Assembly: GCA_026874595.1 (NCBI GenBank)
Contig: CM049314.1
Location: 26,857,729-26,921,728 of the forward strand
Direction: 5' to 3'
Length of the DNA: 64,000 nt
DNA from: Sipunculus nudus
Taxonomy: Eukaryota > Annelida > Sipuncula > Golfingiida > Sipunculidae
Shown here one piece after another: positions 650-38,924 of the stretch. Each line of letters begins with the position of its first letter. Within the stretch, counting starts at the first letter, position 1. Position numbers and translations under genes: made by a program. The notes beneath the pieces are model-generated. The model was not told the DNA's origin. It was given only the letters and a program-made list of their open reading frames with translations, and did no database searches.

Positions 650-1246
650 TGTTTTAGGCTTTCAGGTGAAAAAATATAAATGCTAATTTAATATTAAGTA
701 TAGTAATCTACAATTATGTTGAATAGCTGGAGCACAGTTAAACGCACGTCTTAGAATCAGCATATTTCTGGATACGGAGTACATTTAGCAGCTGTAAGCT
801 CTTTTGTATATCGAACATTATTTCCCGCAATTCGGCATTTTTTAGCCCTAAAAGCTTACTGAGAGGGGCTTTGAGGCGCGTGCTAAACAATAACATCTAG
901 CTGTTCTGCAGTATTAGATAAAGCAAATATGTAAAGCCTTGAGGTAACCCGATAACATGCACTAGCGGCATAGATATATAAAACAATGAATGGTCCAAAT
1001 GCCGCTAACATGGATAACTACATCACAGTAAACAGCGTAGATATAATACAAACCAGTGGAACTCGCACTATCAACAGAGGGCCTTACACTGCACGGAAAC
1101 TGTCACAACTGAATGTCCATATTTTCACAATGTTCGCTGGATTAGACACTGACGCCCCTTAAGGTCATCATAATTGGTACATTTGTCAACCCCATGTTTT
1201 CAATGTAGCGTTGCTTCTAGTTCTAATATAACTTATTGTGTTGCAG
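650..1246 (+). repeat. duplicated upstream/intron block, copy A
   Basis: Between about 650 and 1030 the sequence aligns by eye with about 10590-11000 upstream of the second GT61 copy. Shared words include AAACGCAC(G/T)TCTTAGA, TGAATGGTC and ACATGGATAA in the same order. The same relation continues through the GT61 exons, so the duplicated unit begins at least here. It ends at a good acceptor (TTGTGTTGCAG) at 1246, so it is at least partly intron. Confidence 0.6.
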
Positions 1247-1326
1247 GTGCTGGGTAAGGTCAGTTTAAGGTCATGCAGGCGGCACTTATTTACAAGCTGA
1301 TGGGTTTCGGAGGCGCAGTTATCATG
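1247..1326 (+). CDS. GT61-A exon with start codon and half of the signal anchor
   Basis: The acceptor AG is at 1245-1246, the ATG at 1273-1275 and the donor GT at 1327-1328. The 18 codons encode MQAALIYKLMGFGGAVIM. The same exon with the same boundaries recurs at 11468-11547 with only conservative changes, which supports it as real coding sequence. The first 26 bases are 5' UTR. Confidence 0.85.
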
Positions 1327-3893
1327 GTAACGTAAAAATTAATGAAAGCAGATGCATGCAGCCCGTCATTCGCTTTTCCCTTATACATGGGATCAACAGG
1401 GAAAGAAGTGAATGAAAATAATCCACAGAAGTGTGATGAAATGAATAAGAAAAGCAAAATCCCTTCATGTTCACAAGCTTCGTCACAAGTGGGAAACTTA
1501 GACTATCGTGTTTATCCTACTTGTTTATAAATACAAATTATTTATAAATGCGCATAGAAAATCGTATAATCCAAAATCCTCTCTGCAGAAGACAAATAAA
1601 ATTTAAATTTGTTTAAAACTCTTCAAGCACAGTTCAATATCTCCGATTTGTTCGGACGGTTGATATTTGAAAATTTCTTATATCTGTACGAGTTACCCCA
1701 AAGGTGTAACATTTTTGGTTTCTCAAAACCATACATGTAGTAATGTATGGACAAGATATCCGAAGGATTTACTTGCTGCATATTTACTGATTATTTCACA
1801 AAGGGTGGAATTGAATTCTGAAAGCCCCTCATGAGACTAATTGGTTCACCTCTTATAACATAATATCTCGTACATGATGACCAAAGTAGTAAACGTGGTG
1901 TATGCACCACGGGGCACCGCATTCTCGTGGATTCCGCCTTAAAAAATCATTGCTTTATAGTATTGTTAAAAGAAACCGTAATTATCACCCACGGTAAACA
2001 TATCCAGTATACAAACCTTATTTTTAAAAGGAATAAAAAAATAAATTTTGGACACATCAGCAATCACAGATTTAACATTATCATTTTGATTAGCATTCGT
2101 TATCATAATATTTGCCCATGTTTTATCTCAATTTTGTTTTGACTGTATAATTATCTTTTTGACATTGAAAAATGAAAACCACATGTGTATAATAAAATAT
2201 TTGAATATGCAGACGTTGAGTTTGACAAATGTATAATGATTTATGTTTTAACGGCAAGAATATTTTTAATTATCTTTATAAATGTACCTGAACTTGTTTG
2301 ATACATTTAATTTTTTTTATATCACAGGTATTGGGGTGGATTGCGACAAAATCTCCGGAACTGAATGGTACATATAGAAGCTGGCAAGCCGAAACGGGTT
2401 ATAGGATACATAAAAACTTCTGTTCCGGAAACTTTCCAGTGGTAGACCTCTTTAGAAAACATTTAACAGTACAAGAAAATGCTTATGCTGCGATTTGGGT
2501 TTACGAAAATGGTGACCTTTCTGAACGTTTAAACGAATTGAACACAATCGTGGGAAAAGTTCGAAATATCTGGTTAGAACAAGCATCTCATTGCAAATGG
2601 ACGGCACCAGTTAACATAACTACTGTTCTAGATGGAAGAAGCTTGACTTATTTAAGTAACGTCTCAGAATCCGGCCATGTTGTTCAAGTCATTTTAAAAT
2701 GGATACAGGATCTGAAGAACAAGCAATCTATAAATGAAAAACCAAACCTAATCGTACAGAATTATTACCAATGGACCGCGTCGCCGAATCTGTGTAAGTG
2801 GATCAAAGGAGGTATCACAAATCACCGATGGCATATTGTATACAATAATATTTGTGAAACAAATACAAGCCTTTCTATGGTTCCTGTAGATTTAGCAGTT
2901 ACGTATTTGAATTCTCGTCCAGCACAAAAAGGAATTTTCCCTGCTAAATATCCATCATACTTCCATACTCAACCACCACGTCACGTGACCTTCCTGATGG
3001 TTGCGTTTAATGCGGTATTTACACATTTAGGTGACATGTTTACACACAATGTCAAGGTGGTCCCATATGGTTGTTCGAGTGACGTCAACCCGAAGATTCC
3101 AGGTGATGTCAATAAGGCGCCGTTGTACGATGAAGTTTTTACTATAAGTCAGTTCTGGGGCGCATCGTTTTATCACAAAAATATTGAGGACTATCCCCGT
3201 TTGGCGGCATTTTTACCATTCATTCTCCTACATAAACACATCAAGATACACGTTTTTGAAACCGGAGGATACACGGCAAAGGTGTTAAATTTTCTTGGAA
3301 TAACTAGCGATAGACTAATTGGTGGAGTGGTCAGAGCAAAAATAGCGTACATGCCTGAAGCGACCTACTGTGGTTTCGCACACCCCACAAATAGTCAACT
3401 CCTGTCAAAAACGTATAGGAATAAAATACATTATGGCACAGATAACAATACACGTGATAGTGTGGTTCTAATACGTAGATCTGGAAGTAGAAAATTTACT
3501 CAGCATGTTAAAATTAAACATATGGTGCAATCAATAGTCGAGCAACACAACCTGACATTTGAAGAATTTATAGACAACCCAGTTCCAACCTTTGAAGAAA
3601 CCATGAAGATATTTAACCGCGCTGTCATGGTTGTAGGTCCTCACGGTGCGGGACTTTCAAATATAATCTTCAGTGAGCCTGGTACATTTATTATTGAAGG
3701 GGTCTGTAACCGCCCGCATGTCAATATGTGCTTCAACAGGCTGGCTCATGTTTTGGGTCACCGCTGGCACGGTATTGAGTCCAGAGGGGGCTGTGAAGGT
3801 GTCGTTGACGTGCATGCTGAGGACCTTGAGAAAGTCCTAAAGATTTTTATCAAGGATGCCGCGAATCTGGCAGTGAAAATAAATATTTCATAA
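1273..3893 (+). CDS. GT61-family glycosyltransferase, copy A (intact, two coding exons)
   Basis: Coding exons 1273-1326 and 2328-3893 join in phase 0 to give 539 aa. Exon one lies between acceptor TTGTGTTGCAG (1246) and donor GTAACG (1327). It holds 26 bp of 5' UTR, the ATG and the first half of a hydrophobic segment that exon two completes, about residues 4-23. This fits a type II Golgi/ER signal anchor. The long remainder should be lumenal and carries several N-glycosylation sequons (NGT, NIT, NVS, NTS, NLT). The GT61 signature GPHGAGLSN is at residues 455-463, followed by FSEPGT and a conserved His/Asn/Cys-rich stretch. A VLIRRSGSRKF block precedes it. This is the DUF563/GT61 fold seen in EOGT, POMGNT2 and beta-1,2-xylosyltransferases. 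Donor sugar and acceptor cannot be told from sequence; xylose or GlcNAc transfer is possible. An upstream noncoding exon is implied but not found. Confidence 0.9.
2328..3893 (+). CDS. GT61-A main exon, lumenal glycosyltransferase domain
   Basis: Acceptor TATCACAG ends at 2327 and the open frame runs 521 codons to TAA at 3891-3893. The upstream in-frame ATG at 2298 lies inside the intron and is not the start, because the homologous copy also has a splice acceptor at this point. The whole catalytic domain is in this single exon. Confidence 0.9.
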   Translation, partial: VLGWIATKSPELNGTYRSWQAETGYRIHKNFCSGNFPVVDLFRKHLTVQENAYAAIWVYENGDLSERLNELNTIVGKVRNIWLEQASHCKWTAPVNITTVLDGRSLTYLSNVSESGHVVQVILKWIQDLKNKQSINEKPNLIVQNYYQWTASPNLCKWIKGGITNHRWHIVYNNICETNTSLSMVPVDLAVTYLNSRPAQKGIFPAKYPSYFHTQPPRHVTFLMVAFNAVFTHLGDMFTHNVKVVPYGCSSDVNPKIPGDVNKAPLYDEVFTISQFWGASFYHKNIEDYPRLAAFLPFILLHKHIKIHVFETGGYTAKVLNFLGITSDRLIGGVVRAKIAYMPEATYCGFAHPTNSQLLSKTYRNKIHYGTDNNTRDSVVLIRRSGSRKFTQHVKIKHMVQSIVEQHNLTFEEFIDNPVPTFEETMKIFNRAVMVVGPHGAGLSNIIFSEPGTFIIEGVCNRPHVNMCFNRLAHVLGHRWHGIESRGGCEGVVDVHAEDLEKVLKIFIKDAANLAVKINIS

Positions 3894-5185
3894 AAGGTTC
3901 TATAAAAAATGTATTTATTTAAAACCTTCATATATGTTCATTTTTACTTGGTTTTATTATTGATCGTATTTCAGTCACGCTTCTGCTTGATAATTGAACG
4001 CGTCTGAAAGTATTTCTAGGTGATACATATATGTTCTCTTATCATTTACAATAAATATCACCTTTATAAACTATTTTGTTTTATTCATATCATATGTCAC
4101 ATCATAAAACGGAATGGTGAATCTGAGAATGGAAAGTAATCAACAGACCTATCCCCCCCCCCAAAAAAAAAATAGAGAAAAAAAAACAAAAAATATCGAG
4201 GGACGGCAAATGTGAGGCTTAGGTATTCATGATAAATCGACCAACAAATATTCATGTTTGATAATTGCCGTAATGTAAACTGATAACCTCAATATATTCA
4301 GCGGCTACCCTTGTACTGCCAATTCCTTTACCGGACGGTTATTTAGACGCCCCCATTGTCCTCATTATAATGTGAAGGCAAGTGGTTCGGCCCAAATCGA
4401 GACTGGAAATGAATGTTTCTGTTCTACTTCCTCTCAGCCCTCCTCCATAAATCTTTAACATCGCTCAAAATACGACCACAAATTACTGGGTCGGTGGTTT
4501 CAGACATAAGTGATAACTGTAATATGTTGGCTCAAAGACAAAATAATGACGTCATCACTAGACCGGGCTGGTGATGGCTATTACGATTTTTTCTTAAGTT
4601 ATTAGCAGGGAAAAAAATAGTAACATTATTAGCAAGCGTTGTCCTCCCGACAAGTAAAACTTTAAATTTCACAACTAAATAAATAAATGGTATTATGAAC
4701 TTGTAATCGCTGATGGGATGTGAAATGTCACCTGAAAATCAGCTCCCCTCTCTATTTAATGAGACCACATAACGTGAATGCCACAATGACATACCTTAAT
4801 AATAGCGAGAATCTAGACTAGAACGCCGATTATTACCCTTTTCTGTGAAGGTTAGGGAATAGTTTCCCCGGGAGAACACGTCCAAGTTACATGGCTGATA
4901 TGGCGGGAAGATTTGTTCCACACTCATTTCCAATCATGCACTTCTTTCTGGTCTTGCCGGTGGAAAAAAACAATAAGGCGGATCTATTTTCCCTTCTATT
5001 AGTTCAGTTTTAATGTAAAAATTTTGAGAGTCATTATTAAAAGAACGTCTGGATAACCATTTCGCGCATCTGTAAAACCGGAACCGGGAAAATCAGGGGT
5101 TTGTTTTCATAATACCATTTTCTCAGACTTTTCGATCATCAAACAGGGAATCCAGTTACCGATTCGCTGAAACCAATTCTTATTT
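3894..5185. other. intergenic; 3' flank of the duplicated unit, otherwise unassigned
   Basis: The first 120 bases or so resemble 14684-14812 after the second GT61 copy, so the duplication reaches at least 4010. The rest shows no reading frame, RNA gene or repeat that I can name. Confidence 0.5.
4050..4055 (+). promoter_or_regulatory. candidate polyadenylation signal AATAAA of GT61-A
   Basis: The canonical hexamer lies 157 bases after the stop codon in AT-rich sequence. No other strong candidate is closer. Confidence 0.45.
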
Positions 5186-5470
5186 TAGTCATGTAGAACT
5201 AAAATACCTATATCGACCTAAAATGCCTTGGCAATAGAACTGATGATATAAACGTTTATTTATACCCGGGTATATGAATATTTTTTGGCAATCAATATTT
5301 TTTAATTAACCACCAAAACTATATCCACATTACATGGCTTACACTGGTAAATTGTGTTTATTCGCTTGTATGAATATATTAACTTCGTCTGGAGTTGAGT
5401 ATATCGAGATCATATTTCAGGCTACAGTTCCAAGCACGGCATTCGCAACCGCATCATATTTGTTTTCATG
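5186..5470 (+). repeat. local dispersed repeat, copy 1 (partner at 9125-9410)
   Basis: It shares GAACTGATGATATAAACG, TATGAATA, a run of T, a CCACATTACA/CCACATAACA word, and CAAGCAC(G/T)GC...CGCAAC(C/T)G in the same order with 9125-9410. Divergence is clear, roughly a quarter of positions by eye. The family is unknown. Confidence 0.6.
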
Positions 5471-6261
5471 CTACCATTTTTTCTTAGATTTTTTTATCAA
5501 TTATCAGCGATACCAGTTACCGAATCGCCGAACGAGAGGGTGTGAATAGTCTTATACCAGTCTAGCAAAAAGTGGGCTTCCTTTGAACAATGGCAACTCT
5601 TCACTAATTTTCAGTCCATTCAGTAAATGATGTCATGTAATTGCAGAGGGTAGAGGTTTAAATTGGGAATCTTGCTCGAAGGGTTCGATAAAGAAACGAA
5701 GAAATATTTTTTCTTATATATATGTATATTCATTTTCAAAAGTGAAGCACTAAATGGACGGTGTTAGGGTGAAATCAAAACAAATGAAAAAAAAAAAAAA
5801 ATCCACATAAAAAACAGTATATTTTAAAAACTTTGGACGGGAGTCAAAACCACTGATCATAGGCACAAAGTACTATTCAAAGCAGGTGAATGTTTGATTA
5901 TTGTTACAATTATCGCATTCTACAGAATGACATTATAATAGTAAGACTGTGAAATTCAGGTCAATCGACTACAAGACTAAAACTGAACCAGATCTTAAAA
6001 TATAAATATTGGTCATTTTCGGGAGGTCGGTCACTCCATATTCGGCTGCAATGACGGATTCACTTGATCAGACTTGCGTTAAATGACAAAATAGTAGATG
6101 TTGATAAAAACGAAGCAAGCGCTTGGTCCCTAAGATATAAAGTTGAAGTGGGAACTTGGAATTAGAAGCGGGTGATCCGGATTAAAATTCGTTTTTCCTG
6201 ATTTAGAAAATATAAGAATTTTCCTATTTGTATTAAAAGCATTTTCATGACATGTGTATAT

Positions 6262-6585
6262 TAAAAACTCATGCAGCCAACAACTGCAGCATAAATGGTT
6301 ATTGTTTTGTCGTCAACGAGAGAAGAGATCACATGGAACGTCCCAGGCAGCAGACCTTTCGCCGACATATGGTTGCTACAGAATCTGAATACAGGCGGGG
6401 GCATACACCTACAGCGTCAATTATCAAAAGAGATGCAGTCTCCATTTTGCGTGACCCAATTGATAAAGCTACACCTAGAAAGAAAAATAAAGGTACGACA
6501 TGAGTTGATTTGTTTTCAATTGTGCTGATAATATATAACGAATATCAGTGAAACCGGTAATGTTTCTCCTTCAATTGACAAAATT
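6262..6585 (-). pseudogene. SLC16-like transporter exon remnant
   Basis: Read on either strand, this segment is collinear with the 3' half of the intact transporter exon at 18925-19290. Shared words include CAAC(A/G)ACTGCAG, GTCCCTGC-like spacing, GCAGCC/AGTCTCCATTTTGC and GTGCTGATAATATA(T/C)AACG. Indels destroy the reading frame, and only the region for the last transmembrane helices of that exon can be traced. It lies on the minus strand, downstream of and convergent with GT61-A, exactly as the intact gene lies relative to GT61-B. This implies that an SLC16 gene once accompanied GT61-A. The small plus-strand frames here are shadows of the decayed exon. Confidence 0.75.
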
Positions 6586-7586
6586 ATTATGTAGATACTG
6601 GAGCTTTTGCATTATGTATTAATATTATTATGAGCTCGTAGAATGCAGGTCGTATTTTTTTAGGTCAGCCGACTGCGAGTCATCTGAGCTATAGCAATCA
6701 CTCTTTGTCCGCCCTCCGTCTGTCGGTCTGTCCATTACAGGCCGCAGATAATAACCGGTGGACCTAGACGATTCTACCTAAAAACCTTTGGATTTTCATA
6801 AAAAATATCTTTAGAAACCCAGAATAAGGTCATTGTGACGTATATCCGGGCTATGGGTCTCGTAAGTCCCCCCCCCCCGAAATAATTAAAACTTTGATAC
6901 AAAAGCTCGAATATCTGAAGAACTATTGCATTTATTGTCATGATTCATTTCATACGTATTGAAAAAAAAATTGTTTCATCAATTATTGTAGACTGATGGC
7001 GCCAGCTGTATTTCTTAACATTTTTACGCGTTTTTTCTCTTATTTTTTTAAATCTTCAATGAAGCAGTCTGGACATTTATAGGGCAAAGACCATAACAGT
7101 CAGACGTTGAAACTTTTACCTGTATGTTCTGAGACGACCTAGGCAAATCTGCTTTGAAACATAAAATGTGGTCACGATGAACTATATATTGCGCACTCCT
7201 GGACAAAAAGATGAATTTGAGCACCCAGTGAGTCTGGCGTGAATAAAATTGTAACTGCTGGCCCTAGGACGTATTTTTAACACAAATTTAACCTCAAATT
7301 AAGTCTGCGTGAACTATATTCTGCGAACTATTGGGAAAATTTGATTTGACCTCCCTGAAAATCAGATGGGCCAGAACCGTGTCCCGTTATGCTTTAAATA
7401 TTCTTACTTAACATCCAGGGATTTTATTAGGCCATGATGACCTATTGTATGCAAGTAACTTGCCAAAATCAGGACTGTGAGCACCCTGACAGTTAGGAAA
7501 GCTAAACTTTGTACCCGTTAGACCTAGAAACGTTTAACTGTACATCCTATATATTGAGCTGCAAATCTCCTCATAAACAAGAAATT

Positions 7587-7601
7587 AGGTCATTATGACC
7601 T
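7587..7601. promoter_or_regulatory. perfect IR3 nuclear-receptor-like palindrome
   Basis: AGGTCATTATGACCT matches the AGGTCAnnnTGACCT form bound by steroid-type receptors. It sits in an array unit. Occupancy is not shown. Confidence 0.3.
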
Positions 7602-7753
7602 ACATTTTGCGAGTAACCGTTCGTAAACCTGATTTTAAACAGTCAAAGAGTCATACGGGGCAAAAGTTTTTCGCCTAGCATCCGTTCGGCCTAAAATCTT
7701 CTGATGTTACATTCAAGGAGGTTCTTTGTATATGTCCTCGGAAATATGAAACG

Positions 7754-7768
7754 AGGTCATTATGACCT
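7754..7768. promoter_or_regulatory. perfect IR3 nuclear-receptor-like palindrome
   Basis: The same 15-base word as at 7587, found one array unit (167 bp) further on. Confidence 0.3.
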
Positions 7769-8047
7769 AAAATCTGTGATCTTTAGGAAAAGACATGATG
7801 TGCACAAACTGATCCCGTTAGCCCTATATTTATTATATAATAGCAAGGGAAGTCTTAAGCAAATTTTCATTAAAACCTGAAATTAGTTCACGATGCCCAA
7901 TATTCCCGAGCGACTGGCCCGAAACGTGAATTTGAAAAATAGAACAAACAGACAGTCAAACAGCACGAAAGTTGTAATTGTTAGGCACAGAATTTAAAAC
8001 ACAACATCCAAGGAGGTTCTGTCAAAATCTCCTCAGCAACCTTAAAT

Positions 8048-8062
8048 AGGTCATGGTGACCT
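8048..8062. promoter_or_regulatory. perfect IR3 nuclear-receptor-like palindrome
   Basis: AGGTCATGGTGACCT: both half-sites are perfect, with a different three-base spacer, two units after 7754. Confidence 0.3.
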
Positions 8063-8470
8063 AACATTCTGCTAGCAACCGTTCAAAATATACCTATGAT
8101 AGTCAGGCACGGCACCAAACTTTACTGTTTGACCTATAACCTTCTAATATGACATCCAGGTTGGTCCTTGGCAAATCTCCTTTGATCCTAAAATTTAATA
8201 ATTATGACCTATGTCCTCCGAGCTTTGAGCATGAAAACATAACTTTTAGCACAAACCAAAATCTTAACTATCTTCTTTGGAAACGTCCGTTTAAATATAA
8301 AGGAAGAGCATTGTAATATCTCCTTTGTTATCTAAGTTAATGTCACTGGGACCTACATTCTGTGAGCTGTGTGAGGTAACATGACTTGAGTACCCTCAGT
8401 CAGATGGCGATTTAACTTCTTACGTAGCATCTTGGGAGTAAGTAGTAAAATTTTCTTGTTACCTAAGGAC

Positions 8471-9124
8471 TAGGGGAATTAAAACATGATTTCGAGAACT
8501 CTGGAAGTCGTTCTATCCATCGATCAGGGCTCCTTAACAATAATTTTGACTAGATCATAACACCAATTATTAATAAATGCATCACCTAATACAGGTCATA
8601 TTCAGCTGAGCGTCATGATTCATGGGGCACTAGTTATTGATCTCCCATGGATATGAAATTAGAAATTTTCTAAGCCCAACTGTTAGAATTAGTGTCGGGA
8701 GGACGACGGGCAAAGAGTGGTCGATACAGCTCAGCATGACTGAAAGTCAAATAAAAAAGTTTAAAAATTATTTGTGCAGTAGCCGTAGCGTCTCATCGAT
8801 TGAAATATATGCATCTGGTAACGCAGGTGTTCCATTAAACATATACGCATTGTGCTCCTGATAAGCACATCATGTGAAACTGGCCATCTGTTCCAGTGGC
8901 ATTATGGTCTAGATAAAAACCAAACACGAAGGTTTAGTATTATTCATGTGTTTGCAATAGGCAAGAGTTTTCCGTGGTTTAAGTATTCAACAGCGAATAC
9001 AGTTTTGTTGGTGCAAGCTTTGAACCTTAGATACAGTTCGGTGAGTAAACCTGGCCTATACAGTATCGGCGGTGTAAGCGTTGAACTGTGGATATAGAAT
9101 TGGCGATGGTAGCAGTTGAGTAAT
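8471..9124. other. intergenic, unassigned
   Basis: Two short open frames (8637-8861 and 8852-9097) overlap here without family motifs or codon-like regularity. I see no other signal. Confidence 0.4.
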
Positions 9125-9410
9125 GACTAAAATATCTATATAAACCTAAATGCATTGGCAGTAGAACTGATGATATAAACGTTTATTAATACTCGGTATA
9201 TGAATAAGTTTTTTTATCAAACATTTTTTTTTATTAGACCACGTAACCTGTTTCCACATAACAAATCATAAACCGATAAATTAAGGTAACTCTAATAATC
9301 ATTCCGCTTTCATTCATATGGTAAGTTAGTCTGTAGCCGAGTTTTTTTTAGATCACTCTCTCAGCCTACATAACCAAGCACTGCGCTCGCAACTGTATCA
9401 TACTATTCGT
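9125..9410 (+). repeat. local dispersed repeat, copy 2 (partner at 5186-5470)
   Basis: Collinear with 5186-5470, with shared words such as GAACTGATGATATAAACG. Same orientation, about 3.94 kb apart. Confidence 0.6.
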
Positions 9411-10589
9411 AATATAAATAATGATATTATTTGGATGCATTGTGCCGGAGTCATCAATGACGCCCGATACATGTTGCACGTGACACGAAAATATGTGAAC
9501 TTTGATATGTTAAACTGATATGTTAACACTTTTTATGACATCTGTAATAAATATTCTTTGAAAAACCTACCGCGTCTACTTTATTAAATTATAACGAACA
9601 TTTGCTTGTTTATGTCATGGTAACCTTTTGGAGGCTGAAGATCCAGTGGCCAATCAGTACACACCTAAGTGACGAACATATCATGTTTTTTTATTGTGAT
9701 AGAATCACTGAACTTGAATATACACCATTTCATACAATATGGACGTTTGGTTATAAAGCACTAAGGATTTGAAACACTATTCTGTGATGACATTTATGAC
9801 CAGGCAGTCCAAATTCTCTTCATGAGAAACACATATCATGAACAAAAATTGTCTGCCGTCGAAGTACAGACGCACCAGTATATAAAGGTACGATATAACT
9901 TTGGTAACTAATCTGCATGAAGTAGCCAATATCACAGATGGTTTCATGTTGTCATTCCTACATCCATTACAGACCAGGTTGACTGTAAAGCTTTATGTCC
10001 AAGGTGCACAAAAACATATACACTAAGCTTAATGTTTTCCTTATTCGTCTTTTTTTAGATTATACTAAAATGCCATAACGTATAAAAATATCAGAGATCA
10101 ATGAAAATTAACCCTATATAATAACAAGGTAACCTGCATGGTCCATATAGGCCTCTACAAAGTACTTGATTGGATTACGCACTCGCTTGATTAATACAAG
10201 ATCCGTGCCTATGGAAATAAAAAAAAGAAATTCCACTCCTAGCTAGTTTCATGGATGACTGGAAGCAGGGGATCAGAGAAAGATCTATTCCAAGAGAGTA
10301 GAGGAAAGCCCAGTGAGTGGAGAATATCCCATACAAACGTCCCGCAAGCCTATCACTCTTAGCTTGTTTTTATTTTCGATCCCCTTCCTCTTCACAGATC
10401 ATAACATCATATAAGTCACTGGTGATTCTATAGAAGAAGTAAACCTATTTCATGTAGAGAATCAGATAATGCTATTAGATGGTTTGAAGATATTATAATG
10501 GATGATAATTCTAATACTTTTTCTTACCACCATACGCAACGAGATATAATACTAGTATTGTAGTTTACGGTATGTATGCTGTGCAAAAC
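9411..10589. other. intergenic, unassigned
   Basis: AT-rich with no credible reading frame and no repeat that I can name. Confidence 0.4.
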
Positions 10590-11467
10590 ACTGCGTAAAA
10601 CTTTTCGGTATGAATATTGATACCGACTGAAATTATACCTTCATATTTAACGATTATCCGGAGAATAACAAAAGCATATTAAAACGCACTTCTTAGATTA
10701 AGCAAATTTCTTGTTATTGAATTCAAATTATCTGCACGATCTATCTTATATACAAATTTTAATTATTCCCCACTTGTTTGGCATTTTTGTACGGTGTGAT
10801 ATAGACAGAAAATTTCAGGATTTGCGCTAAATGATAAAATATCTAACTGCTCTACGGCATTATATGAAGCAAATATCCTTAGCCTTCAGGTAATCCAGGT
10901 ACAAGTTATAGAGGCAGAGGTAAATAAGACAATTAATGGTCAGAGTGCCGCTTACATGGATAAAGAATACATTTAAACAGTGTAGACATAACACAATTAA
11001 AACTGATATTTACAGCCTGTTTACACGATTAATATGGCAAACGTTCTTTATCTTTTGCTGCTCAAGAAAAGAATGGGATCTCATACTTAAATATCCACTT
11101 TTATATATTTGAATTTTTTATGTATCTAATGATAGTGATCGACAAAAAAGCTTATTGCTAATGTTTTACTTTTGTATTCACAGGCCTAAAATAAAATTTG
11201 TAGTTTGATAACCCGGCGCAGATCCATCCCATACGGGCCCAGGTACTTTTAGTTCATAGTTTGCTGGTCAGCCAGGAATCCAGTGAGATGCTTTAAGTCT
11301 GACACTGCACGGGCACTCCACACGCGGTGTGTCGCCTGTGAAAACTTTCTTGACATATCTTGACACCATTCGCATCTTCAGACTTAGAAGAATCTTAACT
11401 GGGAAATTGAGAAAACCTTATGGTTTTAGTGTAATATTCCAGTTCTGATATAACTAATTTTTTTCAG
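10590..11467 (+). repeat. duplicated upstream/intron block, copy B
   Basis: The counterpart of 650-1246, with many small indels. It ends at acceptor TTTTTTTCAG (11467) directly before the GT61-B start exon. Confidence 0.6.
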
Positions 11468-11493
11468 GTGCTCGATAAGGCCAGTCGAAGATC

Positions 11494-14400: not shown

Positions 14401-14683
14401 AAACTATGAAGATATTTAACCGCGCTGTGATGGTTATAGGGCCTCATGGTGCGGGACTTTCAAATATAATCTTCAGTGAGCCCGGTACATTTATTATTGA
14501 AGGGGTATGTAACCGCCCGCATGTCAATATGTGCTTCAACAGGCTGGCCCATGTTCTTGGCCATCGCTGGTAGGCATAGAGTCAAGAGGGGGTTGTGAAA
14601 GTGTTGTTGACGTACATGCTGATGATCTGGAGACAGTTGTGAGCATTTTCATCAAGGACGCCTCGAATCTGGCAGTGCAATAG
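11494..14683 (+). pseudogene. GT61-family glycosyltransferase, copy B (nonsense plus frameshift)
   Basis: The same two-exon structure as copy A: exon 11468-11547 (ATG 11494, 18 codons, donor GTAAAG) and exon 13131-14683 (acceptor ACTACAG). The protein resembles copy A closely throughout, roughly four residues in five identical by eye. Two lesions break it. The first is TGA at 14070-14072, where copy A has a glycine codon. The second is a one-base loss near 14574, just after the HRW codons, which creates TAG at 14571-14573. The original frame resumes with GIESRGGC and ends at TAG 14681-14683. Translation from the ATG would stop after 331 residues and lack the GPHGAGLSN motif, which is still present in DNA at about 14443-14469. 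Splice sites are intact, so a transcript is possible. Few lesions and good conservation mean recent inactivation, an allelic null or an assembly error. Confidence 0.85.
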
Positions 14684-16920: not shown

Positions 16921-17149
16921 GATAGAATCATAGCTGAGAAACTGACATAATTGTTGTTATTTTATTGTAAAATAAAAACAAAAATATTCCTAAAAATTAA
17001 AAAAAAATACATGTGGCGCCACCACTTTTCGGGGACTGAAAAAAACAGTCATGGTCAATATTAGAGACAAGATTCATGACAATCCATGCATTGATTACCA
17101 TGATATTTGAGGTTTTGTATCAAATGTTGTTTATTCTGGGGGGTACTTA

Positions 17150-17385
17150 CAAGCCCCGTAGCTCTGATTATATAGGTCGAAGTGATTTATTTTCAGGTTT
17201 CCAAGGACATTTTTATGGACCCCCTAGATTTTAATTAATAGGCTTCTTGGGTTGGCGGTTACGTTTTATGCCCTGCTAACGGACGACCGGACGGCCAGAC
17301 GACCGGACGGCCGGACGGACGACGGACAAAGCGCCATACCTATACCATAGTTGACTTATGGTCAGCTGAGCTAAAATCGAGAAAC
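17150..17385 (+). repeat. repeat tail of the same class (GGACGGACGAC)
   Basis: A run of GACCGGACGGCC and GGACGACGGACAAAG words is followed by CCATACCTATACCATAG and GGTCAGCTGAGCTAAAA. The end words match, in reverse, the tail at 6651-6745. The body units are missing or too decayed to see. Confidence 0.6.
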
Positions 17386-17435
17386 CTTTTCGCCTATATA
17401 CAATAACACTCTATGTTCAATTTTCATTCTTTCTT

Positions 17436-17629
17436 CTAACACTTCATTTTCACCGTGCCGTTTTGTTCAGGGGATTCGGCGTTGATATCTATAGCCTCAT
17501 CGTAAGTCACCTCCGTGCGTTTACACTGAAGCATGTAAATGAAACTACTGCAAATGCCACTGGTGATTTGTGCGATTCCCACAAGCAGGAATGGAGTACC
17601 AAAGTTGCCTGTGATGTCCACAAGAATCC
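17436..17629 (-). CDS. SLC16-like exon 5 (helix 12, tail and stop)
   Basis: Acceptor TTTTTCTTGCAG. It encodes the last helix, a CKR membrane boundary and an acidic tail with a possible Tyr sorting site (YDEAI). The stop is at 17438-17436. A candidate AATAAA on this strand is at 17191-17186. Confidence 0.88.
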
Positions 17630-20600: not shown

Positions 20601-23600
20601 AATATAGAAAAATATTAAAACCAAACCCCATCGTCCAGTCGTTCTTGTAGACGGCATTTTCCAAAAGACTGCAAGGCAAATGCAGCATCGTCAATTGTTT
20701 ATTATACTTATTTTAAAGACCATTGTCTACTGAAACTTATCATGGTTACTTTTTACTTATAATGCAATATTTGCTTCTCGTATAATTCCATTATTAACAT
20801 AATAGCGAGCACTATCCTTAACCCAACTGATCCACAAATGGCAGTGTTGCCACTCCGGGTGTAACTGTGACTGTAAGTACCCTTTTTAAAAGAAGAAAAT
20901 TGTAAAAGAATATTATTTTTTGTTAGGGCTCCATAATTGCTGTGTGCTCTATAAGTCTCAGCACTGCATAGTGTTGGCAAGCACCAGAGAGGTATATTCC
21001 AGTGTATGTAGGACTGCCGTTAAGGTATATCTGTCAAAGGGTATATTCCTCAAGGAAAATGTGTAAATCTGGCTGAAAAGCTTGGGAAAGTATGAACCAG
21101 AGACGTACGTGTGTGTGAGGTTTCTCTATGCAATGCTTCTAAACAAACGTCAGGTATGATATTTACAGTTAAACTGCGACTTTTAGCACATTAGAACTCA
21201 GTACTTCATATTGCCAGTTTTTCTATCTTTCAAGAATGGGCGATATCACAGCTAATCTGTGCTCAATATCTGTTGCGTTAATATAAAACTGACAGAACAT
21301 ATCTATCTCCCTAGACATATTGTGAACAATATGTGAATAAAAATTGCCTCAAATCACCAGTCAATCTAAAGAGTAGCAAATGGTCTTTCCTTTAATAAAT
21401 GTTTGATGCTTGAAGAACGTATACAGCGGCAGTACTGAGACCATGTCACCTGAACTAATTAAACTTTTAAAATTATAAACTTTTAAAATTTTCTATTAAT
21501 AATCCCGTGGAGTTAGAAATAATTATCCTGAGCATTTGTTACTTTAGAATTACCATACATAACCGATAAGTGGAAACACTGCTAAAGTGTAAGACAGTTT
21601 TTGAGAGTATTAGGAGATGTTACATACATATGTGTGTTGAATCAGCAGTTGTTAATCAAAATAGAAAATAAAAATTACTGAATATCAGCGACATTTTCTT
21701 TTGAGACTTTCTCAATTTGTCTTGGAAACAATATTAATAAATATATATTAATCGTGAATATGCCTACATATACTTAGTACAATTCTTTACCACAGTTAAC
21801 TGCACCATATCATGTATTCCAACATATTTAGAAAAGTATTTCTTCACTTAAAGTATTGAATAAAACACCATTACAACTGGTCTATTGTTAAATGTATATA
21901 ATGGAGTCCGAAACAGTAAAGCAGTGATATTGCGCTAAAACCTATTTCAGCCATAAAAGGAAGTGTTAACCTTAATTGTTTCATATAAATAACAGTAGAT
22001 AAATATCCCTCAAATAACAGCAGAAACAAAACGGGCCATAGTAAATGATTCGATAAAATGGACAAAAGTGATTAGTATGGAATAAAGATACTTAACAAAA
22101 GTGTTCATGCAAAGTACTCATGCAACTAAGCAGAGGAAAATAAGGCCAGGAAGTAGTTTTCAGGTCACTATCCACATGTGACAGGATCAGAAATGTACCA
22201 AAACCGTACAAAGTACTGGAGTGTTGACAACTGTAATTTTAATAGTAATAGAGATCAAACGGAATGTGTTTCGATACCTTACACTACAATTGAATAAGAT
22301 ATCTCCCTGGTCTTTCTCGGTTGTAAACTAATAATCAAGAAAATATTCCCTGTATTTGCCAAAATGGTTTATATTATAACATTTATGCACACTTTAACAT
22401 AAGCTAGGTAAACAACAAGATCGGTTCAGAAAAAAGTCCCACAAATTGAACACAGTTAAGGAGCATGTATTTTATGACATAATGAAAAGTGTGAGTCCTG
22501 GTAAAATAAATGGTTGAAATTTTATCGTTGTGTTATCTGACAAGTGTACATATGTTTCATTGCTGGTATGAAATTATGCGATATTACAGTAATCAGATTA
22601 CACTATTGACAGAGCTACTAACTGATTTCTCCTTAAAATAGAACAAGCACTTGAGAGAAAAGCAAAATTACTCGTGCTTGCATTAAACGAGATAATATTA
22701 ACGAATTGAACTATATTGTTTACCTGCACTAGAAACAGCTGTATACAGAACGAATGTGAGAACGTTATGGGGAAAGATCTATATCGTCGATCTTGACCTT
22801 GACCAAAAGTGGACCATCGGGGTTACTTTAAGATGAGGACTGCCAAATAAAACAAAGCAGTATAGAGAGCTACTTGGCCATCTCAAGAAAACGTTGGCCG
22901 AGTGATTTTAACACCACCGTAACTGACATAAGGAATAGGAAAATGCACACCATTCATTGATTACTCATCGGGTGATGGTTGTAGCACATATTGATTTGAA
23001 ACATGTGCAGTACTAAGGGTCTAATAAACTGTAAATAGCGAAATATGGTGGCGCCGCCAAAGAAAAGCAATATGCATATAACGTGGAGCAATTTCTTAAT
23101 GACCGTGAAAATAACATCGAAGAATCCCAGTTTGACCGTATGTACTATGCATATCCTTCTGAATTGACTTTAATTAATGCTTTCCTTGAACACCACAAAC
23201 AGAAAAGATCCAACAATCTGAACATGTGGGTGGCGCCACCACATTCCGCCACCATAATCTGCCTAGGCTGCTTCTTACCCCAAGATAAGATATGTATCAG
23301 GTCATTTCCTTAACAAAAGCAAAGTACGAACCTTTGCACCTTGTAAACCATTAACCTCTAATGAATCTGAAAAGCAAAACTCTTGCACCAAATCTAAGTA
23401 CAAGTTGCGAACTTGTACTTAGCTTTGATGACATGATATATGGCTGTGCATTTTATTTAGGCAGTGAATTAACTAATTTCAAATGTTACTACATTATAAT
23501 TTTTTTTAACGAGTTCTAGTTAGCATTAACACTACTTGAAACCATGAATGAAAATATGCTGAACTTAATACGTCAAAAAGAAGTTATCATTATTTTCTCT

Positions 23601-26600
23601 ATAACTGACAAGTAATCATAGTTGCAACAGTATGCTTCCAAAAAGAGGAATAAAATCTAAATATCCAAACGTTTGATCTCAGTGTGTTTGCGTGAATGTT
23701 ATATTCTTGTTGCTTTAACCCCAGGCCCTTGAATATTGGCTGGCTTTCCCTTCACTGTAGACCCTGGTGGCCGGCTGAAATTTTCTTTCCTGAAGAAAAG
23801 AAAGGGTTTCCTGAAAATATCAGACAAAGATGCACCGGAGAGGCTCATGTGCCAGAGAAAGATGGTATCGTCGAGTAAACAGCATACTCGCCTTAAGCGG
23901 CTTTTTATTTAATAGATTATAATAGTTTTAATCTATATATGACCGGGCATTTGACTGAAGAATTGCCGTCCACAGGTTCAGCTGACCAGATAAATTTTAG
24001 TGTAAAATATAATTCATATTATATGTATATGGACACGGCAATCTTTGGTAAAAAGATAACTAGTTTTCCAACAGCATGCCCATTGGTCGACAGATCCTAA
24101 TCTGCTGGATACTTTAGCGCACTAATACTGAAGACTGACTTATCATCAACCTTTAAACAATCAGTATTTAAACTATAATACACTGTCTGCTTTGAAGAAT
24201 GAATAACTTCAAGAAATCCTACAAAATGATTCAACATAAAATGCAGTGTTTCAAATATCGTTGTGATTATTTGTGATATGACATGGTTAACACTATGGTT
24301 AACACTGATTAAGTGGGAACACAATTTTCACTCATTCTTATATCTGGAGACTGCAGGATATTTGTACAGTTCTAATTTTTTTCTTTAGTTGGCACTAGGA
24401 AGACGTGAAAAAAAACCTTGTGTCACTTAATATCTTAATCAAATATCATACATCATATTTTTAATACATTTAATGGGAAAATCCTTTAGCAACATGACAA
24501 AAATCATGCATATTAAATCAAATCTTTACAGTTTAAATGTTAGATAAACCTTCGTTTTGACATGCTAGAGATATAATAACATTATCTTCCGTAGTTAGTT
24601 CTATGGCTTCAGCACAGCCTACTCAATCAAGCTTCTGGATATAATGCATTTTTTCCACTTCTATTTTTATCTTATAATTCTTCTGACGTTCTTTCTTTGG
24701 TTGCCCAGAAGTTACTTGCAAAAAAGAAACCTTTAAATAACGTTCTCCCAATTCGAGAGATGCGTGGTTTGATGCATGCATTTAAGATTCTGAACTTATC
24801 AGACAAGGAAGCACACCTACCTGGAAAGACACCTAACAAGATGTTAATGATTTCTAGACTGTTGGCCAGACTCGCTGCTGAGACACCGATGCCACCGAGT
24901 AAGCCTCCACACATAACTACAGTCCGAGCCCCATAACGTTTTATCAAAGGACCAAGAACGATTCCTGTCAAAACCAAATGGCCGACATATGAAGACATAT
25001 AACACCTTATCTGTTAACATTTTATCATCCATAATAACATCGAACAGAAGGTGGCTATTAAATGGTAATATCCTCACAATTGATAACTGTTTAGATACGT
25101 TCATTTATCTATTTAAAAAACGTAAATCACAAACCCAGTTAATTACTTTTGTATGATGTGAAACATGGTTATCAACAGTAATAATTATTAAACTGAACAC
25201 ATATTTATTTGCAAGAGCAAAAAGTTATAGACATAAGGCAACAAGATTCAATTTTTATTTAAAAGCATGCTTCAATACATAGTCATATTTGCTTTTCATA
25301 TTTACAATTTTGTATGGTTTCCCTACATTTATTCTTGAACTTCTCAACTTAGTCTACCATGCATATATTACATAGAATGCTGCAATACTTCTTAGAAATT
25401 TTTACAGAAAAAAAAATTTATTTAAAAGCATGCTTCAATACATAGTCATATTTGCTTTTCATATTTACAATTTTGTATGGTTTCCCTACATTTATTCTTG
25501 AACTTCTCAACTTAGTCTACCATGCATATATTACATAGAATGCTGCAATACTTCTTAGAAATTTTTACAGAAAAAAATAATACAAATCCAAAAGAAATAA
25601 ATGCTTTTCCCTTTATTCAAGATTCCCAAGAGGTTTAATAGAAAACTCACTCGTGTGATGTGGCCGATGTATTGGCGCACCAATGTGTAAAATGTATAAT
25701 AAAATAATTTCCAAATGCGCACATTAAACTTGCTTGTGTAATCACTGCACATTATGAGAAAGAATCGCTCCATCGTTCAATGTATGTTCGGTTATATACA
25801 CTGCTCATATGAATGTGAATCCCTAACTGATATTTTATGATACTTGATGATATTAGATGAGTTTTGCTTTGGTTGGCCTGAAGGCACATTGACTTAAAGT
25901 GATCCTTCACAACTTTAAAGTTTGACTTGAAATAAAAGCCTAACACGCAAGAGTTGTTTATGCCATTATTAGCCATAATTCAGTAGTTTCCTCTAATCCA
26001 GAGAGTTAATTGAATAAGTAAGGTCACAGTGACCTCACATTGCCTTTCCTTTTAGCTGCTGGTTTCTTAATATTTAACTGAAATGAAGGTGGATTCCTCT
26101 GTTGTCATGCGACTTACAGACTAAAGTTTGTATAGACGATTGACAGAGCAAGTATTCATAAAAATTTGCTTATGTCAATGCACATGTTATATATATGCTC
26201 GTATTATTGTATACTTTTAGCAAATGAGATGTTTCTTCTTGTATGTTGTGTGTCAATATATGGTTACACGTGCATAGAACCACACCATTACACAGGAACA
26301 GGTGGGTCCGATATTGTGCAACATCAAACAAAATTCTCAAGCCTAACGATCATGGAGAGTTTAGTTTGACATTTAGTCCTCACACCTCTTTGTCATTTCA
26401 AGGATGTTGTTCTTCGGGCTATACAGCCTGAAAGGATAGAAAGAAGAATGGGGAGGTATATGTAACAAATAAAGCTAATACTAATTAGAAATTATAGAAC
26501 TCCCATTTAAAAGATGTAAACTCTAAAACCTTAAATGGAGTTATTAAGTAGTGGGCCATACATAATTGATGTTTGAAATCCATATGTCAATCAAAACTGG

Positions 26601-28594
26601 AGATATCATAAGAGGTGTGTGATATGGAAATATTAAAGGTCAAGGCCACTCTCATGGTAAAGGTCATGACCCAATTTTAAATGACCTTATCCCATAGCCC
26701 ATATCTATAAATTTGCATAATATGGACAAATCTTTCCATTATTTTTTACTTATAATGCTCACAGTTCTGTCAAGTGGCAATGGTGGGGATATTTAAAGGC
26801 CCGAAAACAAAAATGGATCTGTTTAAGGTCAAAGTCACTCTACCAGTCAAGGTCATGACCCAATTTAGGCTTCGTCCTTTAATCCATATCTATACACATG
26901 TAAAGTTTGATAAAGATCCCTGAAATATTTTCTGAGTTATCTCGCTCAAAGTTTTTCTGCAGCGGCGGGACAGTGCTGAAACCATAGTATTCCCCGACTT
27001 TGTCCGAGGATACAATAAATAACAAAAGTGTGTTAATATAAATTATTATGACATTGTTTTAATACAGGAATTTTCAGCATTGAATTACTAATGTAATAAT
27101 GTAATAATAAAATAATAATAATGGAACAATGTAATAATGGAACATCTATGACAGACCCCATTCTAAGAGGAAAACGATATTTTATGCGAAACAACAGCAC
27201 ACTAACATATAAGTCGCGATAAATTAAATTACACTTATAGGAATTTCTGAAGAAATGACGTTTGGCTGATGAAAAGAAAATTCATGATAGAAAAAAAGTA
27301 TTTAAGCTACCTTATTATTATTATTATACCTTAGAAAGGCCGGGAATGTCTAAAGAATAGACAAGCCAGACAAATTTTATTATTTTTTTTTTTCTTTTGA
27401 TGCGTCAAACGATATTCATATTGCAGCCCGTAGATTTTTTAATTCACCCATTTATTACATATAAATATTGATTAATACTCGTTTTTTCAGTTTTGTATAA
27501 TTCAACTATTCAGAGTATATTAATATCATTTCATACTAGTCTTTTTGAGGTATTATGTAATTCAACCACTTATTGTATATTTATCGATTAACATTTGCTA
27601 TTTTTAACTATTGTTACATACAAAACGGCCATAGGTGAGCATTGCGACATTTATTTAAAGGCATCATTGTGAGAATAAACTTCGCAGGTTTTGAGTAAAC
27701 ATTCAATAGTGCGTCCATTCCCAGCAAATTACATTTTTGTATTACAATCAGTGATAGTACACGCTACATTGCCTGATATATATTTGCTGTGTATAGACCG
27801 CTCAGCTGATCGGTGATGTATTTTGGGAAGCGACAAATAATAAACAGATCAGATGCCTCACCACGTTATTGCACTTTGGACCCCATCTCCTCTACTGCCT
27901 GTGGCCGGAAAAAAAACCAAGCGCACCTAACTGTGTTGATGAAAGAACTGAGCACGTGCTGCGTAATACACAGGGTACAGCACTGACTTGTGGAATCGGA
28001 TTACCGCTACACAGCAAAAGTTTGAGTAGCAGGGTGATTTCTTGTGTTGTACTGGTGTGTATACCAGCTTGATTAGCTCGGCTACATGGTATTTGTTGTG
28101 AGTGGCGCTTACGAAAAAAACAAAGAAATTTCTCCACGCCATAGAGTCATGGTTTTGTACTTTTTGGGCATTTTCAATAGAGTACCCTAAAGGACTCAAC
28201 AAAACGCTCCTTTTTATTGAGCACTGTATGCTGAAAAGAAACGTAAAAGTGCCAGTGACAGTAAAGAACTGGCATGCAAAACTATTCAAACAATAGGTCT
28301 TAACCGCTCATATGGAACATGAGGATGATTGATAAACACACACACACATATATATAATATATATATTCATGAATATGTACCCACAGAGGTCTACATACTA
28401 TTTTTATCAATGTTTAATTTTAATCTGTGAGGTATGTGTCACATTTTCTCATATTTCATGTTTTGTCAAACAAACAAGCTTAATAACCTCAACTGTTGCT
28501 GAATCACTTGTCTCCACTTGCTGACTGACCTCATGCATGAATGGATGATCCCAAGCCTGACTTGGGGAAGCATACTTAATATGACCTTAACGTG

Positions 28595-28651
<57 letters not shown>

Positions 28652-28776
28652 TATTATCCCTTACTATTTGACAATTTTCTTCAGAAGCCTATAGATGTTT
28701 ATACATTCATGAGGTTTGACCAATTGTTTTGTTGAGTCTGCATGTGAGGTATATTGTCGGAATTTATTGTAGACAG

Positions 28777-28828
<52 letters not shown>

Positions 28829-28940
28829 TATATATAATATTCTTTCATATTTGACCACAGAGGCCTACAGATGTTTATACAAGGTTTGACCAATTGTTAT
28901 GTTAAATAGTCTGTGAGATATTGTGGAATTGTTATATTGA

Positions 28941-28971
<31 letters not shown>

Positions 28972-30742
28972 GGTGTTTCTACAAGCAGTTTTGTTCCAAA
29001 ATAAACTCTGTTTTCCCAATATTAGACTTTATTGTTCATATTAACCATTGAGTGACGAGAGAGCGCGAGATGTATTGGAACTTACATCAGTAGAGTTTTT
29101 TTGTCCATTCGTAAAAGAATTTTATAGGGCTGTACAAAAGGTTTTTATTGGCTCAAAAACCCTTTTCATGAGGGTTTTCTAGCACTACAAGAACCTTTTT
29201 AGAAAGGTTTTAATACAGCGCTAAAGGTTTTCCAGAAAACCCATAGCCTAAGGTTCTCCAGAAAACCTTTAAAGGGTTTTTCTATAGGGTCAGTTTAAGA
29301 ACCTTTTAAAAACCTCTAGAAAAACCTTTATTTCTAACAGTGTACTATGTAAGCTCCGTTTCTGATGGTGAACTCAGAGGGCGTATATTACGGGCGGATC
29401 CAGGATTCTGGAAAGGGGAGGGTCCAACCAGGGAAGACTAATAAGAAAACCTAAAAAAAATTGCCCTGATCCAGAAATGGAGGGGTCTAGGAAAGAACAA
29501 TTGGTTTCAGATCCTGAAAAAAAGGTTGTTGGGGCTCAAAAAGAGCACGGTTTTGACCCCCTGACCTCCACCCCCCGGCTCCGCCACTGTATAATATTAC
29601 TTATTCATGTGTGTAGGCAGAACATTCGAAAGGGATTCATTCCACATGAAATTTGTTATCTTAAAATGTTCCAAATATTCTGTATATATACAAATATATG
29701 GAATTTATATTATCGTGTTATTTTGTATACTATATAGATATATAACAGATGTTTCCTATACACTTATACAGACTGATAGCATATTAAAATGTTAATATGT
29801 TTTGCATCGAAAATATAGTCAGCCATTTAATGTGTGGGCAAATGCCTTTTTAACTAATACTTGCATTAGCAATTAGCACGGCACCCTTGGTAAGACATAC
29901 CTTTTCTTACTTTTCATGTTAAAAATACACTGTTGTGTATACATTAAAGTACTTCATCTTGGTGTGATTTGTTTAGGTGCTCTTGCGATTGAAACATAGC
30001 ACACTTATACCTACCTGGTAAGGCGCTCCATTCATTGTAAAACTTGTCAATGACTTTTGTTCATTCTCTTATCCTTCCAAATACGGCAAAGATCATCGCG
30101 GAAAATCACGTTTCCAAGGGACATGCGCAAAGGATTAGATATATATCCCTGCTTTAAATATAACAGGACCGTGCAGCGATCACGCTATTATAACCTGGGC
30201 TGACTATATCTTATAAAATGCGAGTCGATCCCATTCTAACGCTGAATATGTGAATAACGTTTATTAATTTAGATATCTAAGTGTTATCTTTTTTTTAAAG
30301 TATTTCCGCATTTATCTAAACCAAAACCTTGAATATTTAGAATTTGTTTAATTTTCAGAGTCATTTAATTAGCACAAAATGGACTGTTATTCCGATAACA
30401 CAATCAACATGTTTTTCTTCTGAATTCCATTATCATCTCTTTCAACAAACCATATGAGTTTCATACCGAGAAACAAAAACCCACTTAGTTTATGAGAATT
30501 GTGACCGATGCATGTAATAGCATATTTACAATCATACCAATGATTCCTGCGATTCCAACTGTCAGCGATCCGGCAACTGCTGCTTCTGCTTTGCTGACCC
30601 GGAAGTAGTCCACGAATTCCGGAAGGAATACCCCATGTGCCGTAAAGTTGCCGGAAAATAGGCAGAACAACATGAAGGTGCTGAACATAACAACCCATGA
30701 ATATCCATGATCTACGGTGGCGGTCATCTTCTTATTTGCCAT
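17436..30742 (-). CDS. SLC16 (monocarboxylate transporter)-like MFS transporter, five coding exons
   Basis: Exons in coding order are 30742-30538, 24964-24821, 19563-18925, 17968-17843 and 17629-17436. All introns are GT-AG, every junction is phase 1, and the sum is 1308 nt (435 aa plus stop). This is a normal length for a 12-helix SLC16 protein. The N-terminal family motif appears as DHGYSW (residues 11-16, usual form DGGWGW). The helix-5 motif is YFHQRRALAFG (134-144). A charged loop of about 35 residues separates helices 6 and 7, and the C-terminal tail is short and acidic. The helix-8 Arg-Pro is present (IFRP), but the Asp four residues before Arg that proton-coupled MCT1-4 use is Ser, and the helix-1 Lys is absent. 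This points to the orphan MCT groups; substrate unknown. The first coding exon has an acceptor (TTTCTTTCAG) ten bases before the ATG, so a noncoding exon lies upstream. Confidence 0.92.
17843..17968 (-). CDS. SLC16-like exon 4 (helix 11 region)
   Basis: Acceptor TCACATTATAG, donor GTTTGAT, 42 codons encoding AGYIAMENAVLGDIV and GIYMFSYGMGCLLTPPVAG. The ME...VLGD and PP(V)AG words are common near the C-terminal helices of MCTs. Confidence 0.85.
18925..19563 (-). CDS. SLC16-like exon 3 (helices 4-10)
   Basis: Acceptor CATTTTTTACAG, donor GTGAGTAT, 213 codons. It carries YFHQRRALAFG, the central acidic loop (DEEDDQQ) and IFRPIFGFCGD. The 3' half of this exon is the part that recurs as a remnant at 6262-6585. 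Confidence 0.9.
19564..23035. other. intron 2 of the SLC16-like gene, first part
   Basis: AT-rich intron with no reading frame of note and no repeat that I can name. Short frames at 20.1-20.4 and 21.9 kb look random. Confidence 0.5.
23036..23252 (+). mobile_element. small element with inverted termini (GGTGGCGCC)
   Basis: Left end GCGAAATATGGTGGCGCC matches the reverse complement of the right end GGTGGCGCCACCACATTCCG with few mismatches, giving imperfect inverted repeats of about 20 bp around a 215-bp body. A related GTGGCGCCACCAC word is at 16995. One plus-strand frame is open across the element and includes 23083-23313, but resembles no family I know. No target duplication is clear. Confidence 0.5.
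24821..24964 (-). CDS. SLC16-like exon 2 (helices 3-4)
   Basis: Acceptor TTGGTTTTGACAG, donor GTAGGTG, 48 codons, phase 1 at both ends. It encodes GPLIKRYGARTVVMCGG, the usual MFS loop 2-3 signature region, then a helix ending GVFPG. Confidence 0.88.
25255..25580. repeat. 163-bp near-perfect tandem duplication in an intron
   Basis: The block from TTTATTTAAAAGCATGC at 25255 repeats at 25418 with no differences that I can see over about 160 bases, apart from the length of an A run. It is either very recent or an assembly artefact. Confidence 0.85.
26021..26035. promoter_or_regulatory. perfect IR3 nuclear-receptor-like palindrome in SLC16 intron 1
   Basis: AGGTCACAGTGACCT is a perfect consensus of the estrogen-response-element type. 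It lies between coding exons 1 and 2. Function unproven. Confidence 0.35.
26620..27015 (+). repeat. two-unit AGGTCA-rich repeat with tail
   Basis: Units near 26634 and 26821 share TTAAAGGTCAA(G/A)G(C/T)CACTCT and AAGGTCATGACCCAATTT, about 187 bp apart. The end near 26975 (ATAGTATTCCCCGACTTTGTCC) recalls the ends of the other arrays. It is probably a member of the same repeat class. Confidence 0.6.
28320..28970. repeat. (TA)n-bearing tandem repeat in an intron
   Basis: Two to three units of roughly 165 bp. Each has a (TA)n tract (28595-28649, 28778-28818, 28943-28968) and a spacer with AGATGTTTATACA, GGTTTGACCAATTGTT and GTGAG(G/A)TAT(A)TTGT. The first unit is more decayed. Confidence 0.75.
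29100..29345. repeat. cluster of short AAAGGTTTTC/GAAAACCTTT palindromes
   Basis: At least eight copies of AAAGGTTTT or its complement occur in both orientations within 240 bp, for example around 29155-29290, so the single strand could fold repeatedly. It could be a MITE or its core. No termini are identified. Confidence 0.5.
29388..29593 (+). mobile_element. GGCGGATCCAGG-type MITE-like element, copy 1
   Basis: It starts GGGCGGATCCAGGATT and ends CCCGGCTCCGCCACTG, whose complement CAGTGGCGGAGCCGGG mirrors the start. Further copies lie at 43178-43305, about 49600-49745 and, reversed, 59040-59241. Ends of the CAGGGGCGGATCC kind are common in hAT-derived MITEs. Confidence 0.6.
30538..30742 (-). 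CDS. SLC16-like exon 1 (start codon, helices 1-2)
   Basis: The ATG is at 30742-30740 and the donor is GTATGA. It encodes the DHGYSW motif, helix 1 (VVMFSTFMLFCLFSG) and the GVFLPEF segment, typical of orphan MCTs rather than MCT1. An earlier in-frame ATG (30784) lies beyond the splice acceptor and is not used. Confidence 0.88.
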
Positions 30743-38905: not shown

Positions 38906-38924
38906 GGGGGGGGGGGGGAGGGTA

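Follow-up and report, generated by a model that had tools for sequence, protein, structure and literature searches.

Of the processes already described, the closest to what is found at a locus of the sipunculan Sipunculus nudus is birth-and-death evolution of tandem gene families in which a passenger gene is duplicated in part. The locus lies in the stretch of 64,000 nucleotides analysed here as a whole and called the window (C9:26857729-26921728, C9 being contig CM049314.1), and the genome searched is the 1.43-Gb assembly in 153 contigs. Two copies of a gene of glycosyltransferase family 61 (GT61) alternate in it with a fragment and an intact copy of a gene resembling the SLC16 transporters, in the order GT61-A (+), SLC16 fragment (-), GT61-B (+), SLC16-like gene (-), interleaved and with orientations kept. 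It is likely, although not proven, that the duplication of GT61 took in at least part of SLC16, because the neighbouring SLC16 lineage is the source of the fragment and the interleaved order conserves the orientation. An expansion of the MCT/SLC16 family (MCT, monocarboxylate transporter) has been published in bivalves (PMC11939762), and the present genome is similar in this respect, with at least 168 matches to SLC16 exons, MFS relatives included; a GT61 neighbour is not described in the abstract and Results of that paper. No mention of a GT61-SLC16 pair was noticed in the literature searched, which covered GT61, partial duplications and SLC16 in bivalves. The features of the locus, in window positions, are the following.

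638-1051, no strand assigned: dispersed repeat upstream of GT61-A, with a related copy upstream of GT61-B at 10580-10996 (genome matches).
1273-3893, plus strand: GT61-A, intact two-exon gene (exons 1273-1326 and 2328-3893) with open frame, GT-AG intron and PF04577 above cut-off.
5865-6249, minus strand: candidate for a degraded piece of SLC16 intron 3, corresponding to 18615-18908 (shuffle tests, weak).
6250-6560, minus strand: fragment of SLC16 exon 3, the 3' half of the exon (alignment, tblastn, tree, genome DNA search, shuffles).
6655-8750, no strand assigned: dispersed repetitive element with inverted-repeat-like ends (genome matches).
11494-14683, plus strand: GT61-B, disabled copy (stop codon and frame break).
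17436-30742, minus strand: SLC16-like transporter, intact, five exons (gene model, domain matches).

An earlier note on this DNA had described the locus as one ancestral two-gene unit, duplicated in tandem and then brought back, by reciprocal loss, to a single working copy of each gene. GT61-A with the fragment is called unit 1 below, and GT61-B with the SLC16-like gene unit 2. The SLC16-like remnant that the note had placed behind GT61-A at 6262-6585 was found at 6250-6560, its limits having been correct within about 25 bases. Read on the minus strand (6560-6250) it aligns to 19257-18909 with 83 of 308 aligned bases differing, a score reached by none of 60 shuffles, and tblastn gave an E value of 2.9e-18; the reading frame is broken and the splice donor is not kept in the alignment. 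A DNA search of the genome with 6199-6600, by a method that passes over very common words, returned two matches, the query itself and window 19043-19230. Furthermore, in a tree of 25 SLC16 exons, taken from 25 fetched loci among the 168 matches and including two of the same exon sequence, the fragment has the window exon as its partner with 100% ultrafast bootstrap (UFBoot) support, at a p-distance of 0.306 versus 0.405 to the next. Since it has this sole other match in the genome DNA search and this pairing in the tree, the fragment descends from the neighbouring SLC16 lineage, and a closer relation to an SLC16 locus other than the exon at 18.9-19.6 kb did not appear.

The rest of the transporter is harder to trace in unit 1. 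The 5' part of SLC16 exon 3 has no alignment there, and tblastn over the window and 60 kb upstream of it matched exons 1 and 2 below E 1 only where they themselves lie; over those 60 kb none of the SLC16 exons gave a match below E 1. The segment 5865-6249, next to the fragment, resembles 18615-18908 weakly, with a score reached by 0 of 300 shuffles in a narrow test and by 4 of 300 in a wider one. Near the truncated end of the fragment lies the element 6655-8750, with at least 73 matches in the genome including itself (40 of 6474 candidates scored), whose end 6671-6717 pairs with 8701-8748. A direct repeat, 72% identical, flanks the fragment at 5198-5458 and 9126-9402.

The intact state of the SLC16-like gene, also claimed before, was borne out. 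Its exons on the minus strand (30742-30538, 24964-24821, 19563-18925, 17968-17843 and 17629-17436) give 435 codons with no internal stop, and all four introns are GT-AG. The protein matches MFS_1 with 162.7 bits, among solved structures exon 3 matches MCT2 best (E 2.6e-16) and the best NCBIfam match is the monocarboxylate transporter TIGR00892 (E 1.3e-55). Its score lies far below the curated cut-off of this MCT subfamily model (188.9 vs 586.1 bits), and for this reason we call the gene SLC16-like, without a subfamily. In intron 1, at 25254-25577, a perfect direct repeat of 161 bases stands almost head to tail. Two stretches of the SLC16 region, 15996-16800 and 16968-17376, also match sequence upstream of the window, but these matches recur within 124 kb, look like repeats and were rejected; 15996-16800 holds repeats of type TGTGACCTTGACCTTTGACC, present upstream of the window too. 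Matches of 26520-26967 to sequence upstream of the window were set aside and not used.

GT61-A has an open frame of 539 codons. PF04577, the GT61 domain, scores 52.9 bits against a curated cut-off of 27 at residues 297-455 of exon 2, and by this domain criterion GT61-A is a member of glycosyltransferase family 61, with a putative enzyme activity. The GT61 protein had no NCBIfam match and a profile search against solved structures was empty as well; a single-sequence match to MOB2 (E 0.0054) is weak and was taken as chance. GT61-B (exon 1 at 11494-11547, exon 2 from 13131) is 84.3% identical in DNA to GT61-A over 1708 bases and is broken, as previously reported, by a nonsense codon (TGA, 14070-14072) and a frameshift (near 14571-14573).

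The flanks of the two copies had been said to align as well, which holds in part. The 3' flanks (3894-3998 and 14696-14814) and the 5' flanks adjoining exon 1 align beyond shuffles, but apart from the repeat the upstream homology begins near 1100 and 11336, that is, about 160-170 bases before exon 1 only. The block 638-1051 has 19 matches in the genome, itself counted, and is a dispersed repeat; the GT61-B-side copy is absent from these matches. The A-side and B-side copies are 70.6% identical; five fetched copies from elsewhere are 72.9-78.3% identical to the former and 69.1-75.2% to the latter, all five being nearer to A's copy than B's is, and four of the five nearer to B's copy than A's is. 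As evidence of duplication the pair 638-1051/10580-10996 was thus ruled out. The repeat does stand on the same side and in the same orientation at both genes, which leaves some room for common inheritance.

A third GT61 copy, GT61-0, was located by tblastn and genome search outside the window; it occupies C9:26823046-26825756 and lies 33 kb upstream of GT61-A. It has an exon 1 with GT donor, an exon 2 with AG acceptor and an open frame that stops four codons earlier than the frame of GT61-A, contrary to the proposed return to one working copy of each gene. The homology between GT61-0 and GT61-A spans 1107-4335 and takes in the intron and some 440 bases past the stop, and the noncoding sequence common to GT61-A and GT61-B is less complete, GT61-0 and GT61-A being the closest pair in noncoding sequence. 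Near GT61-0, tblastn gave no SLC16 match below E 1, and the matches listed for this part of C9 include no GT61 copy other than GT61-0, GT61-A and GT61-B. Nei-Gojobori synonymous divergence (Ks) is 0.272 for 0/A, 0.402 for A/B and 0.473 for 0/B. Along exon 2 the derived sites change partner: in the first 450 bp those shared by A and B prevail (17 vs 6) and in the remainder those shared by GT61-0 and A (32 vs 12), a pattern reached in 79 of 5000 permutations. Exon 2 is probably a mosaic formed by gene conversion, and this switch of partner blurs the coding clock.

For the age of the fragment we used fourfold sites, at which 15 of 45 differ between the fragment and the intact exon, 47 of 179 between GT61-A and GT61-B and 31 of 185 between GT61-0 and GT61-A (Jukes-Cantor distances 0.441+-0.126, 0.323+-0.051 and 0.190+-0.035). 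The synonymous comparison proposed in the earlier note thus came out compatible with a common age of the fragment and the A/B event (p 0.36), although with wide errors; an older fragment would also fit, and the younger 0/A event does not fit (p 0.02).

The selective histories look very different. Changes on the fragment's own branch fall on 38 of 162 sites at codon positions 1 and 2 and on 9 of 45 at position 3 (p 0.69), versus 4 of 128 and 10 of 46 in the intact SLC16 exon (p 0.0003). No sign of coding constraint is seen along the branch of the fragment, and since, in addition, the 5' exons were not found, the proximal SLC16 was probably truncated when it arose or shortly afterwards. GT61-B seems to have been under stronger purifying constraint (three-point w 0.18) than GT61-A (0.38) or GT61-0 (0.31), and the third-position bias of its specific changes is no lower than in GT61-A and GT61-0 together (p 0.31); stop codons and the frame-break codon were masked in the GT61 comparisons. 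Given this w and the normal codon-position pattern, GT61-B would have been under normal constraint until late and its loss would be recent. The losses were thus asymmetric, the SLC16 fragment having decayed early and GT61-B having broken late, and a reciprocal loss of two formerly constrained copies does not agree with this.

We propose the following history. An ancestral convergent pair, GT61 followed by an SLC16-like gene, would have undergone a segmental tandem duplication that copied GT61 entirely but, most likely, just the 3' part of SLC16, with a breakpoint inside the latter. The proximal SLC16 copy would never have had the promoter and the first exons and, for that reason, may have undergone neutral decay from the outset; close to its remains there is now a mobile-looking element. 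The distal copy, with its 5' end retained, would have remained functional. A segment of about 3.2 kb with GT61 alone would later have been copied between the position of GT61-A and the site 33 kb upstream where GT61-0 is found, and the GT61 copies would then have swapped sequence, probably by gene conversion. GT61-B would have been held under purifying selection and broken recently. The account as a whole, including this order of events, we regard as probable, though by no great measure. What it keeps of the earlier idea of a duplicated two-gene unit is GT61 with at least part of SLC16, as argued from fragment parentage and order; that both were copied in one event, and as a continuous unit, is not proven.

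Several results weigh against this account. SLC16 exons 4 and 5 were not found by tblastn in unit 1, where a breakpoint within SLC16 ought to have left them, and this makes a further deletion necessary. About 1.9 kb between the 3' flank of GT61-A and the fragment has no convincing alignment to unit 2, and continuity of a single duplicated unit is thus not shown. The third-position distance of the fragment (0.399+-0.080, or 0.535, depending on the alignment) is in both versions nominally above that of A/B. Noncoding A/B distances are 0.40-0.42, with 0.421 over 776 aligned bases in the intron, where the homology is real (alignment score reached by 0 of 60 shuffles); under strict scoring this intron retains 55 aligned bases and the 5' flank 57, versus 623 for the 0/A intron, and the A/B intron distance, being aligner-dependent and best taken as a lower bound, was dropped as a clock. 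Within the fragment 13 of 87 position-2 sites changed versus 25 of 75 at position 1, which leaves a short constrained phase possible. Finally, trees of exon 2 pair GT61-A with GT61-B (65% in IQ-TREE, 0.92 in FastTree; seven sequences, namely the three copies and loci L002, L005, L006 and L007, with L001, L003 and L004 left out and L008 being GT61-B itself), in conflict with Ks and the noncoding sequence, which pair GT61-0 with GT61-A.

The unaligned spacer and the nominally larger fragment distances would suit independent events, that is, a spread of segments carrying GT61 alone and a separate, perhaps older, local duplication behind the SLC16 exon fragment. The GT61-0/A homology indeed covers GT61 alone, and SLC16-like matches are clustered on the same chromosome. 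Nevertheless, the interleaved order with its conserved orientation, and fourfold divergences of fragment and A/B that do not differ, make such a history rather doubtful. Duplication of the full two-gene unit, with both SLC16 copies working for a time before the reciprocal loss, draws on the same parentage and order as our partial duplication, and the low position-2 change gives it room for a short constrained phase; we hold it unlikely, given a fragment that lacks a third-position excess, 5' SLC16 exons with no match below E 1 in unit 1, a third GT61 with an intact frame and two losses that differ in timing. In a reading compatible with any of the others, GT61-B would still be working and its lesions would be assembly errors or a segregating null allele. 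Two lesions only, in a gene under such strong constraint, speak for it, but they are separate, one of them is a substitution to TGA and stops occur also in other GT61 matches of the assembly, and it seems distinctly unlikely. That the convergent arrangement was kept by selection, for example for shared regulation, with two full units for a phase and losses that then restored the balance, is highly improbable.

Elsewhere in the window, a 1137-bp tandem duplication at 38922-41191 (38922-40058 and 40055-41191) is 99.9% identical and either very recent or an assembly artefact. A minisatellite of roughly 63-base units occupies 36429-37590, within a GC-richer stretch. At 63189-63467, on the minus strand, an exon-like open reading frame matches structures of solute carrier family 23 member 1 (E 4e-6), with no NCBIfam match.

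In the same genome, a GT61 cluster at C9:43.2-43.46 Mb is the nearest comparison. Four copies in it show 72-75% identity to GT61-A, a stop interrupting the match of one of them, and it also contains fragments that carry stops, but it differs in that its nearest SLC16-like match is about 380 kb away. At other places of C9, judged by eye among the matches listed (as is this last figure), GT61 and SLC16 come nearest at 19.46 Mb, about 440 kb apart, and at 5.55 Mb, about 35 kb apart, where the identity is 28%. On C15, at 14405597-14429510 and 2956757-2965359, there are groups of GT61-like matches in which stops are numerous and which seem to be decayed copies.

The locus is a small and readable example of a segmental duplication that carried a fragment of a neighbouring gene, with two passengers decaying at very different times. 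It also illustrates that a neat story of reciprocal loss in two genes can arise from where the window ends, with a third copy just outside; its wider importance is small. The case is one of ordinary birth-and-death evolution, or gene-family turnover. Like the tandem families that evolve in this way, it has neighbouring copies, one of them disabled and one a fragment, signs of gene conversion and a repetitive element near the break. There is no essential difference from them, and two unrelated families seem here to share one duplication.
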